Assembly: GCA_018060515.1 (NCBI GenBank)
Contig: JAGOVY010000004.1
Coordinates: 1 to 41,255, forward strand
Length of the DNA: 41,255 nucleotides
Origin: Anaerolineaceae bacterium
GTDB taxonomy: Bacteria > Chloroflexota > Anaerolineae > Anaerolineales > Anaerolineaceae
Reading direction: 5' to 3'
Positions 29,031 through 33,174 of the stretch are shown here, piece after piece. The notes below the pieces were generated by a model. That model was not told the DNA's origin. It did no database searches and worked only from the letters and a program-made list of their open reading frames with translations. A program made the position numbers and the translations under genes. Each line of letters begins with the position of its first letter. Within the stretch, counting starts at the first letter, position 1.

Positions 29031-29930
29031 CTACTCCTGAAGGCGTGTCAAGCGCTCAGCGTACAAGCGCAGGTAATCAACCACGTGCGCCGACCAGTAG
29101 GATTCCTCATGCCGGCCTTCAAATTCAAAAAAGTCAAACGGGATCCCCGCTTCTTCCAGCGCGGTGACGAACTCCGCCACCTTTTCTTTGTCTGCATCAC
29201 GGTCTCCGGCATCGACAAAGATCAACGGAATCTCATCAGCCGGAAGCTTGGCAGCAGCCTGGATATTCCAGATTTCACCATAAAAGAGTGGTGTGCTATG
29301 AGCGCCAATTACTCCGAATATTTCGGGATGAGTAAACCCAAGGTGAACCGCCCAATTACCTCCGCGTGATAAGCCACCTACCGCGCGGCAGGCGCGCTGT
29401 GCACAAACTGCGTAATTGGCTTCGACATACGGAAGCACATCTTCGAGGAGCGCTTCATCGAATTGAGATTCGCTCGGTCCAGGCGTCCAGGTTACTTCAA
29501 AAGGCATGACGATAATCAAAGGAAGAATCTCTTCCTGGCGAATGAGATCATCTGCTGCGTTGGTGATACCCAGCCGGATCCACTGGTCGTTGGATGCTGC
29601 CTGCCCATGCAGCATCAACAGCATCGAGTATCCCTCAGCGATCATGGGGTCATAGCAGGGCGGCAGGTAGATGTTGGTGTTTACCGGCTGCGTCAGCTTA
29701 TCTGTAGGGACATCCACGTTGATAATTCTGCCATTTTTTTCTGTGCACCTAATCGGCGTAGGAACTGGTGTATCCTGCGGCGTGGCGGTGGGCTCAGGTG
29801 TTTGTATACTCAAAAACGGTGTTGAGAGGACTTCCGCTGTAGGGGTAACCAGGCTTACTTCCGGAGCGGCGCAGTTGGTGACTATGAAAATTGTAAAAAG
29901 GCAGGAAAATATGAATAAAATTCGGCGCAT
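29031..29930 (-). CDS. Lipoprotein esterase (esterase D / alpha-beta hydrolase)
   Basis: A 299-residue exported hydrolase. A lipoprotein signal ends in the lipobox IVTNC (Cys20), and a Thr/Pro-rich spacer (about 25-58) leads to an esterase D-like alpha/beta hydrolase. The nucleophile elbow is GGLSRGGNW, the acid is probably in FVDAGDRDAD, and the histidine in EGRHEESYW. It likely removes ester groups from surface or environmental molecules. ATG 29930 is chosen; the frame continues into the tRNA-Pro promoter region, which is not coding. Its natural substrate is unknown. An acyl-transfer cassette lies just beyond the tRNA, but no direct link is shown. Confidence 0.88.
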   Translation of the reverse strand: MRRILFIFSCLFTIFIVTNCAAPEVSLVTPTAEVLSTPFLSIQTPEPTATPQDTPVPTPIRCTEKNGRIINVDVPTDKLTQPVNTNIYLPPCYDPMIAEGYSMLLMLHGQAASNDQWIRLGITNAADDLIRQEEILPLIIVMPFEVTWTPGPSESQFDEALLEDVLPYVEANYAVCAQRACRAVGGLSRGGNWAVHLGFTHPEIFGVIGAHSTPLFYGEIWNIQAAAKLPADEIPLIFVDAGDRDADKEKVAEFVTALEEAGIPFDFFEFEGRHEESYWSAHVVDYLRLYAERLTRLQE

Positions 29931-29966
29931 TGAGGTTAGGAGTTTTCCTTTAGACACGAAGTTTGC

Positions 29967-29996
29967 TTGACGTACTTTGGCAGTTCCGATTATACT
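29967..29996 (+). promoter_or_regulatory. Promoter of tRNA-Pro
   Basis: TTGACG (29967-29972), an 18-nt spacer and TATACT (29991-29996), 9 nt before the mature tRNA. It is back-to-back with the start of the esterase gene. Confidence 0.75.
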
Positions 29997-30005
29997 CGAA
30001 GCGCT

Positions 30006-30081
30006 CGGGGTGTAGCGCAGTTGGCAGCGCACCGCGTTTGGGACGCGGGGGTCGGCGGTTCAAGTCCGCCCACCCCGACCA
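30006..30081 (+). tRNA. tRNA-Pro (anticodon UGG)
   Basis: A complete cloverleaf: acceptor CGGGGTG (30006-30012) with CACCCCG (30071-30077); D-arm GCGC/GCGC; anticodon stem CCGCG/CGCGG with loop TTTGGGA and anticodon TGG (30039-30041); T-arm GGCGG/CCGCC with loop TTCAAGT; discriminator A and an encoded CCA (30079-30081). The CCA end is immediately followed by the stop codon of the convergent SGNH gene, so any terminator for the tRNA must lie inside that gene. Confidence 0.97.
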
Positions 30082-31191
30082 TCATTTACTTCCCAATGAT
30101 TGTATTATTCCAGATTCGATAATTTCCAGCGCCAGAATTTCCTCTCCGGCGGGGCTCAGGTGAATGGCGCTGTTGGTAAATTCCTCTTCCGACACAAGGT
30201 TCCACAAATCCAGATAATACCAGCCATTGGCTGCGCTGGCTGATTCCATCTGAAGCCGGTAGAGGTCGAAAGCCCAACGCGGATAATAAAAATTGTATCG
30301 GATGTCACTGTTGGCGCCGGAACTGATCATGATTGGTTCATTGATAATGACCAGCGGTACATCCCCGGCTATCTTTACACCGGCATCAATCAAGTCGAGC
30401 GCCAACCAGCCCTCAGGGAATGCCGGTGGCGCCCAGTTGTGGAAGTTTTCATCTGCTTCAAGGTCGCGGGCAGCGGTAGCATAACTGGGTGGATACGCCT
30501 GGTCAATGCCGGTGGCTGACCACAGGATGCCGTAAACTTGCAGCCGCAACAGATCAGCCAACTCACGCCGCTGGCCAATGATCGTGCGCTGCCATAGCGA
30601 GGCGCTGCCTGCTGCAGGTGTAATATCCAAATCGTAACGTTCAATCAGCTCATTCAGCCGTTCAGGGTTATTGGCGACTATGGGAGACTCTGCTTGGCGC
30701 CCGCGCGGAAATGACTCAAGCGTCAGCGGCCAAAGAATCAAATCGGGTGAATAGCGCATCGCACCATCCAACACCATCAAGTCTTTAACCAGCGAGAGCG
30801 TGGGGTAACCCAGGTTGTACACCCGCACCTTCCTGCCATCTGCACTGCGCAGGTTGGCAGCATCAAGCAGCCCGGCCAGGGTTTGCTGCGGGCGCAATAG
30901 CGTGCCCCAGGTGGAAGAATCTCCGATGACAATCACGCGGAATTCGTCTGCCGACTTGGAACTGCCATCCAATTTGTGAGAGGTGTACATTGCCTCAAAA
31001 TTGAACAGGCTAAGGTTATAATCTTCTGCGGGGTTTTCTCCAAACGGGAAGCGCTCGCGTCCGCGCCACAGGTGGTTGTACAATGAAACACGCCCCAACG
31101 CATCAGTATCAACCCCCACCCAAACAAAATTAAACACCAGAAAGAGCAGTAACCCTTTCAACAACACATTACGGATAAAGCGAGAAGTCAC
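30082..31191 (-). CDS. SGNH-family acyltransferase/hydrolase, DltD/AlgX-like
   Basis: A 369-residue protein with an N-terminal membrane helix (about 9-27, VLLKGLLLFLVFNFVWVGV) and an extracytoplasmic SGNH domain. The nucleophile is Ser92 in IVIGDSSTWG. The C-terminal catalytic block reads NSAIHLSPAG with His344, where the usual DxxH Asp is replaced by Ser. Paired with an MBOAT and a DltX-like microprotein, it should be the second transferase that takes the acyl group and esterifies a surface polymer. The start is GTG 31191: GGAGG lies 6 nt upstream and the GTG overlaps the MBOAT stop (GTGA). An ATG at 31197 is too close to that site. Confidence 0.85.
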   Translation of the reverse strand: MTSRFIRNVLLKGLLLFLVFNFVWVGVDTDALGRVSLYNHLWRGRERFPFGENPAEDYNLSLFNFEAMYTSHKLDGSSKSADEFRVIVIGDSSTWGTLLRPQQTLAGLLDAANLRSADGRKVRVYNLGYPTLSLVKDLMVLDGAMRYSPDLILWPLTLESFPRGRQAESPIVANNPERLNELIERYDLDITPAAGSASLWQRTIIGQRRELADLLRLQVYGILWSATGIDQAYPPSYATAARDLEADENFHNWAPPAFPEGWLALDLIDAGVKIAGDVPLVIINEPIMISSGANSDIRYNFYYPRWAFDLYRLQMESASAANGWYYLDLWNLVSEEEFTNSAIHLSPAGEEILALEIIESGIIQSLGSK

Positions 31192-32636
31192 TGCCATCCT
31201 CCAAACCCCAAAACTCGCCCCAGTACACGCATGGCAAGTTCAGGATCAGGGATGGTGAACCATACCCAGCCCAATGTTACGTAAGTAAAAGTGAGCACGA
31301 CGCTGAGCGCTGTCTTAACCCCATTCAGAATTGGCATCTTTTGCAGGCGCGTGGCTACAGGCTGTGTCCAACTGCTCCAGCGGTTTTGGATAAACAAGCC
31401 CACACCGTGCCATAGCCCCCATAATGCGAAGTTAACTGTCACACCATGCCACAACCCAATCAAAACCATGGTGGCCAGTTGGGTAAGCAGCATTACCAGC
31501 CAGGCTGGCAGCCATTTCGCTTGGGTGCGGAAAAATCGCGTCAACGGGAAAAAGAAATACGCCCGAAACCACTGGGTTAACGTGATATGCCAACTGTCCC
31601 AAAACCGTGTGAGGTTGGGTTTTAGGTAAGGAGCACGGAAGTTCTCTGGCAAGCGAATGCCCATCAGCCGGCCCATACCAATGGCAATTGAGGTATACCC
31701 ACTGAAATCAAAATATATCTGCAGGCTGTACGCCACAAGAAGCAACCACAGCCAACCAGCAGAGTCAACCTGAGCGCCGTTCGTGCCATTCAACGAGAAG
31801 AGAGCCAGCGTATCAGCCAGCACAAATTTCATAAACAAACCAATCACAAGCCGCGTGATCCCGCTGCCAAAATCCTGCGCGGAGGTCGAATAATTTGTGC
31901 GCAAGTCTTTGATAAACCGTTCGCTGCGGTCGATAGGCCCGGCGCTGATTGCCGGAAAGAAGAGAATATACACCAGGTATTCTTGCAGGCTCATCTGTGG
32001 CAGTCGGCCGGCTTGCCTGTCGCGCAGTGTGTGAATTAAGCGGAAAGCGATGTAAGAAAAACCAAGCCAGCGGATATCCAGCGCAGAAGCTAATTCGCGC
32101 GACTGCCCCGTCAGCCCGCGCAGCCAGGTGCTCAGGGTGAGTGTCAACACCGGAAGTTTGAGCACCAGGAACAACAGCAACAACAGGAAGATCGCCAACC
32201 CCAGGCTGCTGCGAAAACGCCGTCCAGCCAGACTGAGCACCAGCAATGCGCCTGAACCTGACAGCAGCACCAACAACACGGTGAGGGTCTGCGGCGGACG
32301 GGATGCCGTGATTGTTCCATTCATCGCGAGAAACCGCGTCAGCGATAAAAGCAGCACACTGCCGGCGACGATCAGCATTGTGACAATCGTGGCACGCCGG
32401 TCATTTTCCCCCGGGGAAGAAGTCAATGCCCAGCCCAAAATCGTCAGCGCAAGTGTGGCGCAGGGCAGCCAGAAATCTAACCCGCGAATGGGCAAGGCGG
32501 GCTGCAGCCAGAAAATTACCACCACGCTGACGATCAACAGCAGCGGGTTGCGCAGGTGGCGCGTTCTTTCGTAGCGGCAGAGAAGCGCCACGCCCAGTGA
32601 TAAACCAATCAAAAGCAGAACGTCAGTGAGCGCCAC
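31188..32636 (-). CDS. MBOAT-family membrane O-acyltransferase (DltB/AlgI-like)
   Basis: A 482-residue polytopic protein with about 11-12 helices. MBOAT marks seen: SLQEYLVYILFFPAISAGPI; LQIYFDFSGYTSIAIG; FWDSWHITLTQWFRAYFFFPL; and the catalytic His region LIGLWHGVTVNFALWGLWHG. It should move an acyl group from a cytoplasmic thioester donor across the membrane. The C-terminus (LGRVLGFGGWQ) lacks a terminal Tyr shuttle motif, but the microprotein gene directly upstream supplies one. GTG 32636 follows the microprotein TAA with no gap; AGGG inside the last microprotein codons can serve as the ribosome site. The first 220 residues are a hydrophobic N-terminal extension, longer than in DltB. Confidence 0.93.
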   Translation of the reverse strand: MALTDVLLLIGLSLGVALLCRYERTRHLRNPLLLIVSVVVIFWLQPALPIRGLDFWLPCATLALTILGWALTSSPGENDRRATIVTMLIVAGSVLLLSLTRFLAMNGTITASRPPQTLTVLLVLLSGSGALLVLSLAGRRFRSSLGLAIFLLLLLFLVLKLPVLTLTLSTWLRGLTGQSRELASALDIRWLGFSYIAFRLIHTLRDRQAGRLPQMSLQEYLVYILFFPAISAGPIDRSERFIKDLRTNYSTSAQDFGSGITRLVIGLFMKFVLADTLALFSLNGTNGAQVDSAGWLWLLLVAYSLQIYFDFSGYTSIAIGMGRLMGIRLPENFRAPYLKPNLTRFWDSWHITLTQWFRAYFFFPLTRFFRTQAKWLPAWLVMLLTQLATMVLIGLWHGVTVNFALWGLWHGVGLFIQNRWSSWTQPVATRLQKMPILNGVKTALSVVLTFTYVTLGWVWFTIPDPELAMRVLGRVLGFGGWQ

Positions 32637-32753
32637 TTAAAAGCCCTGGTAAATCCATAACGGCGCGTCACTTGAGGAAAGAATGAGCAACAAAACCAGA
32701 ATCAGCGCCAAAATCAACGCCCATAGGTTTTCTTTAGTAAACAAGGCTTTCAT
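32637..32753 (-). CDS. DltX-like acyl-shuttle microprotein
   Basis: A 38-codon gene reading ATG at 32751-32753 to TAA at 32637-32639, directly abutting the MBOAT GTG start. The product has a basic N-terminus (MKALFTKENLW), one helix (ALILALILVLLLILSSS) and a short outside tail DAP followed by the terminal hexapeptide WIYQGF, Tyr at 35. By the positive-inside rule the tail faces out. In Gram-positive Dlt systems DltX is a microprotein of about 50 residues encoded in the dlt operon, whose C-terminal hexapeptide (FIYNEF-like) carries the acyl group on its Tyr from MBOAT DltB to DltD. Aromatic-Ile-Tyr-x-x-Phe-COOH, placement and topology all match. No dltA or dltC is nearby, so the acyl group need not be D-alanine. 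Confidence 0.8.
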   Translation of the reverse strand: MKALFTKENLWALILALILVLLLILSSSDAPLWIYQGF

Positions 32754-32790
32754 TTTGTCGCTCTTTGCTTAATGCAAACCTGCGAATCGC

Positions 32791-33174
32791 TTACTTTTGT
32801 CCGCACAGCAGCCAGGTATCACCCTGTTTTTCGAGCGCAAAGGTCATGCCAGACAGGTCAATTTCCTGGTCTTCTGTGCCGTAAGTGGCGATTATCTTGC
32901 CAGTACAGTTCACAGTGGCACTGCTGCCACTGTTATCAAGTTCGGTGCAGGTCATGTTTTCAAGGCGGGCTTTCACGCCAGTGAAAGAATCCAAAAACAA
33001 CTTGGCCTGCGGCTCCCAGTCTGCGCAGGCAAGCTGCGAGACGGAAGCAGAATCTCCTTCCACCAACGCTGTGTAGAACGCCTCAACCGCCGCTGCCGAA
33101 GAAGAGGAGGATGTGCATGCAGCCAGTGAAAGCAATGCCACAACTAAGATTCCAAAAATGAGTAACTTTTTCAT
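32791..33174 (-). CDS. Small lipoprotein with NTF2/DUF4878-like domain
   Basis: A 127-residue lipoprotein: signal MKKLLIFGILVVALLSLAAC with lipobox LAAC, a Ser/Ala linker, and a domain that begins VEAFYTALVEGDSASVSQLAC and ends DTWLLCGQK, the pattern of DUF4878/NTF2-like lipoproteins. Four further cysteines probably form disulfides outside the cell. It lies 37 nt upstream of the microprotein gene in the same direction, so it may be the first gene of the acyl-transfer operon. A TATAAT on the minus strand (33268-33273) about 95 nt upstream is a likely -10 box. Function unknown. Confidence 0.82.
   Translation of the reverse strand: MKKLLIFGILVVALLSLAACTSSSSSAAAVEAFYTALVEGDSASVSQLACADWEPQAKLFLDSFTGVKARLENMTCTELDNSGSSATVNCTGKIIATYGTEDQEIDLSGMTFALEKQGDTWLLCGQK

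Follow-up and report, generated by a model that had tools for sequence, protein, structure and literature searches.

The window analysed here, that is the whole stretch of 41,255 nt from Anaerolineaceae bacterium GCA_018060515.1 (contig JAGOVY010000004.1, positions 1 to 41,255), contains a compact group of genes on its minus strand that may encode a transmembrane acyl relay built around an MBOAT acyltransferase and a DltX-like microprotein. Read along that strand, the cassette consists of genes for a small lipoprotein (33174-32791), the microprotein (32753-32637), the MBOAT (32636-31188) and a membrane-anchored SGNH-fold protein (31197-30082). The TAA stop codon of the microprotein gene touches the GTG start codon of the MBOAT gene at 32637/32636 with zero gap, as reported in a preliminary description of this DNA, which also placed a lipoprotein gene upstream. 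This upstream gene encodes a 127-residue protein with the lipobox LAAC. The source genome, a draft assembly of 2.05 Mb in 165 contigs, is 97% complete, and the incompleteness of metagenome-assembled genomes bears on all counts of presence and absence given below.

The microprotein open reading frame (ORF) translates as MKALFTKENLWALILALILVLLLILSSSDAPLWIYQGF, a 38-residue protein with one transmembrane span and the C-terminal hexapeptide WIYQGF, in which Tyr35 is the candidate acyl acceptor. When the sequence preceding each close homologue of the MBOAT was translated, as had been suggested with the preliminary description, a small ORF was found upstream of the MBOAT in 41/41 orthologous Anaerolineae loci. 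When the set was enlarged to 71 MBOATs, 59 (here called split MBOATs) lacked a Tyr motif of their own, and an ORF of 33-51 residues is found at the start of all 59. The remaining 12 MBOATs, found in genomes of the same family, end in their own Tyr hexapeptide (endings include FIYAQF and IYGGF) and none of them is accompanied by the ORF. The free and fused forms of the motif are therefore mutually exclusive. Amongst the 59 microproteins the ending was WIYQGF in 57, WIYQNF in one and WIYSGF in one. Counted from the C-terminus, Pro-8, Trp-6, Ile-5, Tyr-4 and Phe-1 (P31, W33, I34, Y35 and F38 in the window) are invariant in all 59 while their codons vary, and a short single-span protein with an invariant aromatic-x-Y-x-x-F end was seen at 59/59 loci and in alignment A6. 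The aromatic-I-Y-x-x-F ending that had been anticipated for a free microprotein was thus found at every split locus, and neither of the two observations that might have contradicted it, an unconserved frame or a Tyr hexapeptide on orthologous MBOATs at an intact locus, appeared.

The microprotein gene is under purifying selection. Over its last 33 codons the mean non-synonymous divergence (pN) was 0.28 and the synonymous divergence (pS) 0.70, over the last 8 codons the values were 0.04 and 0.82, respectively, and pN was lower than pS in 99.75% of the sampled pairs. The exact DNA pattern for WIYQGF followed by a stop codon was detected in 33/55 genomes of the class and in 1/345 other genomes of the phylum, with no occurrences anywhere in the backward-read control; in the single genome outside the class a recognisable MBOAT was absent nearby. 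A chance ORF was ruled out by the presence of the frame in 41/41 and 59/59 loci, together with the distribution of the WIYQGF-stop pattern and the pN and pS values. The microprotein is real and is conserved across the class Anaerolineae. Pfam, including the DltX family PF12459, gave zero matches for the window microprotein or for any of the 21 other members of alignment A6. Across the genus nothing scored over the 25-bit cut-off of PF12459, and the window genome had no match to it at all.

At one locus (L258:6528-10282) the order is microprotein, two SGNH genes and then the MBOAT gene, so the microprotein counts as a gene in its own right and as more than an MBOAT leader. One annotated record was examined, that of Leptolinea sp. 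HRD-7 (L269, GenBank accession number AP024711.1), which belongs to the same GTDB-type family as the window genome (Anaerolineaceae, Chloroflexota). There the lipoprotein, microprotein and MBOAT genes are on a 212-kb plasmid, each annotated as hypothetical protein, and the annotation shows no SGNH gene beside them.

The MBOAT (482 residues) has the Pfam match (E 6e-20), the two active-site His residues and the fold of the MBOAT superfamily. His350 and His397 are invariant in the split MBOATs, and their contexts match those of the active residues His289 and His336 of DltB (PMC11035591). When a profile of the split MBOATs was compared with solved structures, DltB was the only sequence match (221 bits), and a Foldseek search with the fold model placed DltB first (E 2e-11), followed by HHAT and PORCN. 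The window protein scored 220 bits against the DltB equivalog TIGR04091, over residues 178-460, under the cut-off of 375 bits. It ends in RVLGFGGWQ and so has no Tyr motif of its own, as first described, and the motif is likewise missing from all 59 split MBOATs. Phylogenetic trees resolved three separate groups with 98-100% support, one of split MBOATs, one of fused MBOATs and one of DltB, and a core-only alignment produced the same groups. With the root unplaced, whether DltB and the split clade share one splitting event depends on the position of the root; given three groups in the trees, a single change suffices for the free-motif state, and we take nothing further from the topology. The window genome also encodes a second MBOAT (L166, contig C49), which is of the fused type and ends in FIYAQF.

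The SGNH gene has two possible starts. ATG at 31197 gives a 371-residue protein with a 10-nt overlap with the MBOAT gene and Ser94 as the nucleophile, while GTG at 31191 gives 369 residues, a GTGA overlap and Ser92. The GTGA overlap and Ser92 of the preliminary description hold with the second start, and the protein beginning MTSRFIRNV that it produces aligns with the N-termini of relatives. A homologue from this gene family directly follows the MBOAT gene in 53/59 loci. The protein was modelled with AlphaFold2 (mean predicted local distance difference test score, pLDDT, 70) as an N-terminal helix and a domain that Foldseek and VIA both assign to the SGNH fold. Generic SGNH proteins and DltD tied on Z (13-15), with the longest alignments given by DltD (252-277 residues, Z 13.3-13.5). 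A sequence search against solved structures found zero matches, whereas the fold search did match. The block I GDS serine and a late His (His346, in FTNxxxH) are conserved. In relatives, a second SGNH-like gene in the operon (L162:11681-12628, L185:11077-12039 and others) encodes a lipoprotein that has GDC instead of GDS and often a DxxH-like motif, whereas the first SGNH protein has GDS and no DxxH Asp. The window genome contains one copy of this second gene, 43% identical, on another contig (L265:7904-8935).

The small lipoprotein is a conserved member of the operon, with homologues upstream of the microprotein in 46 loci. It has conserved Cys residues besides that of the lipobox and weak similarity to SnoaL_3/DUF4440, and is perhaps NTF2/SnoaL-like. 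A tRNA-Pro gene is found just past the SGNH gene on the opposite strand and, beyond it, a putative esterase (PF00756) with an N-terminal lipobox-like stretch is encoded on the minus strand at 29031-30032. The genes flanking the operon differ from genus to genus, so the cassette looks self-contained.

The cassette was originally thought to have no activation or carrier partner, and this did not survive comparison with its relatives. In many of them the operon comprises genes for the lipoprotein, microprotein, MBOAT, SGNH protein, second SGNH-like lipoprotein, a carrier protein and a ligase, and the lineage thus has its own counterpart of DltA and DltC. The narrower statement that DltA and DltC themselves are absent stands near the window copy and, by cut-off, in the genus: neither DltA (TIGR01734; best score 109 against a cut-off of 560 bits) nor DltC (TIGR01688) was over cut-off in any of 16 genus genomes. 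The linked carrier has 80-odd residues and the phosphopantetheine motif GLIDSF, and weakly resembles several carriers, including DltC, though above no cut-off. The linked ligase has 560 residues. The best matches of all 21 ligases scanned were fatty acyl-AMP ligase (FAAL)-type NCBIfam models, below the curated cut-offs of those models, and the ligase profile spans the whole length of the FAAL structure 3kxw (362 bits). On these matches the linked ligase is of the FAAL class and not DltA, which speaks for an acyl group different from D-alanine.

Co-occurrence was examined in 147 genomes of the family, 66 with and 81 without a split MBOAT. The carrier was present in 61/66 and 7/81, respectively (Fisher 4e-27), and the ligase followed less strictly, in 46/66 and 6/81 (Fisher 7e-16). 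Where carrier and split MBOAT are on one contig, they are no more than 6 kb apart in 34/42 genomes. The fused-type MBOATs of L166, L171, L172 and L174 also adjoin AMP-ligase genes, and a small carrier protein is encoded near those of L171, L172 and L174, so carrier-linked MBOAT systems there extend beyond the split form.

We consider it probable that the cassette encodes a transmembrane acyl relay that resembles Dlt but has another source of acyl groups. The difference in supply is suggested by the class of the ligase, FAAL rather than DltA, and the relay itself by analogy with DltX, for which an acyl-Tyr has been described, and PatA, for which acetyl-Tyr has been demonstrated (PMC12148441). 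From the gene content, the motif, its conservation and selection, the folds and the co-occurrence, we infer a donor, an acyl group, an acceptor and the following chemical steps. The acyl group would start on a cytoplasmic phosphopantetheine carrier, which in most relatives would be loaded by the FAAL-type ligase encoded last in the operon. With its two conserved His residues, the MBOAT would hand the acyl group on to the free microprotein, where Tyr35 would receive it at the outer side of the membrane. A swing of the hexapeptide would then bring the acyl group to the GDS serine of the SGNH protein, and that protein would attach it to a glycan, lipid or protein outside the cytoplasm. Assistance may come from the small lipoprotein and, in relatives, also from the second SGNH-like lipoprotein. 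The same relay would then probably move a different acyl group onto a surface molecule.

Several observations weigh against this interpretation. In a read-through DltX-Gly-MBOAT model the MBOAT part was usable and the microprotein had a pLDDT of 37-50; docking on the MBOAT is therefore not predicted and contacts are not claimed. In block V of the SGNH protein the DxxH motif is replaced by FTNSAIH, which has the His but a Ser at the Asp position, and this is family-wide; an explanation is called for both of the missing Asp and of the GDC in the second SGNH-like protein. Clear microprotein genes were found in two genomes of the class (L254:6704-6820 and L259:6559-6675) where the stretch examined contained none of the MBOAT, SGNH, carrier and ligase genes. 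The carrier is present without this ligase in 18 genomes and, in the assembly of the window genome, neither the operon-type carrier nor the ligase was found.

In the closest relatives of the window genome (G132, G125 and G124) the carrier gene is at a separate locus, without this ligase. That of G132 is flanked on one side by a gene of the size of a ZIP transporter, identified in G124 as ZIP, and on the other by a gene for an M29 peptidase. Neither flanking gene had a match in the window assembly, so the absence of the carrier may be an assembly gap; the missing carrier and ligase may reflect either a gap or true loss. The donor in the window organism could be a carrier on missing DNA, another carrier or acyl-CoA. 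At L266:2339-4165 (contig C16) the window genome encodes a protein of about 608 residues (615-residue open frame) with matches to an adenylating ligase and a phosphopantetheine carrier, which on those matches is a possible alternative acyl activator. A further carrier is encoded in an 84-residue frame, and neither it nor the L266 carrier is linked to the MBOAT locus.

The alternative that survives best retains the Tyr relay but takes acyl-CoA, most simply acetyl-CoA, as the donor, as in PatA, with the carrier and ligase of the relatives serving a neighbouring pathway. It implies an acetyltransferase like PatA in which the C-terminal helix and the motif have split off as a gene of their own. 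The lack of the ligase in the window genome and some relatives, and of the carrier in the former, would fit this, as would the MBOAT core, which shows 32-41% identity to the fused forms in the comparison and 29% to DltB; the fused MBOATs studied to date use acyl-CoA (PMC12148441). However, the carrier is tightly linked to the split MBOAT and co-occurs with it, and the window assembly also lacks both neighbours of the carrier gene seen in the closest relative, as missing DNA would produce. We therefore regard an acyl-CoA donor as unlikely.

True D-alanylation, in which a diverged dlt operon would modify a polymer resembling teichoic acid, appears very improbable. The functional parts are the same as those of dltXABCD, DltB and DltD are structural neighbours and the carrier is weakly similar to DltC, but the FAAL-type ligase, the scores for DltA, DltC and DltB and the lack of a match to DltX in Pfam all speak against it. 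A canonical dlt operon was rejected on the DltA, DltC and DltB cut-offs. The least credible proposal gives the microprotein the role of a structural subunit, filling out the MBOAT fold in place of the last helices of the fused MBOATs, with a Tyr that is no acyl carrier. This would account for the mutual exclusion of free and fused forms but not for invariance that falls on the hexapeptide and the Pro rather than on the helix, and in PatA the same Tyr has been proven to accept the acyl group (PMC12148441).

Under the preferred reading, a Dlt-like relay with its own acyl supply, the shuttle chemistry is separated from D-alanine and an independent system becomes available for testing acyl-Tyr transfer. 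It points to an acylated envelope polymer in a widespread group with a poorly known cell surface, and adds a family of small proteins for which Pfam has no model. More specifically, the Anaerolineae may run a third type of MBOAT-SGNH relay, in which a free DltX-type shuttle, a FAAL and a dedicated carrier place a non-alanine acyl group, possibly a fatty or other carboxylic one, on an undescribed envelope polymer. We see the case for and against this extension as evenly balanced. If it is true, the use of a free shuttle does not depend on D-alanylation or on teichoic acids.

Compared with the Dlt system of Bacillota (DltX, DltB, DltC, DltD, DltA), the Anaerolineae system shares a free single-span microprotein ending in aromatic-I-Y-x-x-F, an MBOAT without the motif, an SGNH-fold partner and, in relatives of the window organism, a carrier protein and an adenylating ligase within one operon. 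It differs in that the ligase is FAAL-type and not DltA, the carrier is not DltC by cut-off, and the hexapeptide is WIYQGF where that of Dlt is FIYNEF-like (FIYNEF in L237). The gene order, the extra lipoproteins, an SGNH protein without the DxxH Asp and the phylum, Chloroflexota, differ as well. Judged by profile scores, it would work like Dlt yet falls below every membership cut-off tested (DltX, DltB, DltA and DltC).

With the PatA/PatB and AlgI-type systems it has in common the MBOAT and SGNH pair, the C-terminal Tyr hexapeptide and the identity in the MBOAT core noted above. In those systems the MBOAT itself carries the motif, and the microprotein and carrier are absent (PMC12148441); the Anaerolineae system, where the motif is not fused, is not of this type. 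The linked ligase resembles fatty acyl-AMP ligases (PDB 3kxw, FadD32) over its full length and also has a carrier gene adjoining it, but is linked to an MBOAT-SGNH relay and not to polyketide or lipid synthases. No report of an Anaerolineae DltX-like/MBOAT/FAAL system was found in the literature searched, which covered few subscription papers. A 2025 study stated that, outside Dlt, MBOAT-SGNH pathways have neither a carrier protein nor a DltX-like microprotein (PMC12148441). The class-wide system described here is an exception to that statement, as it has the microprotein and usually the carrier, together with a different ligase.

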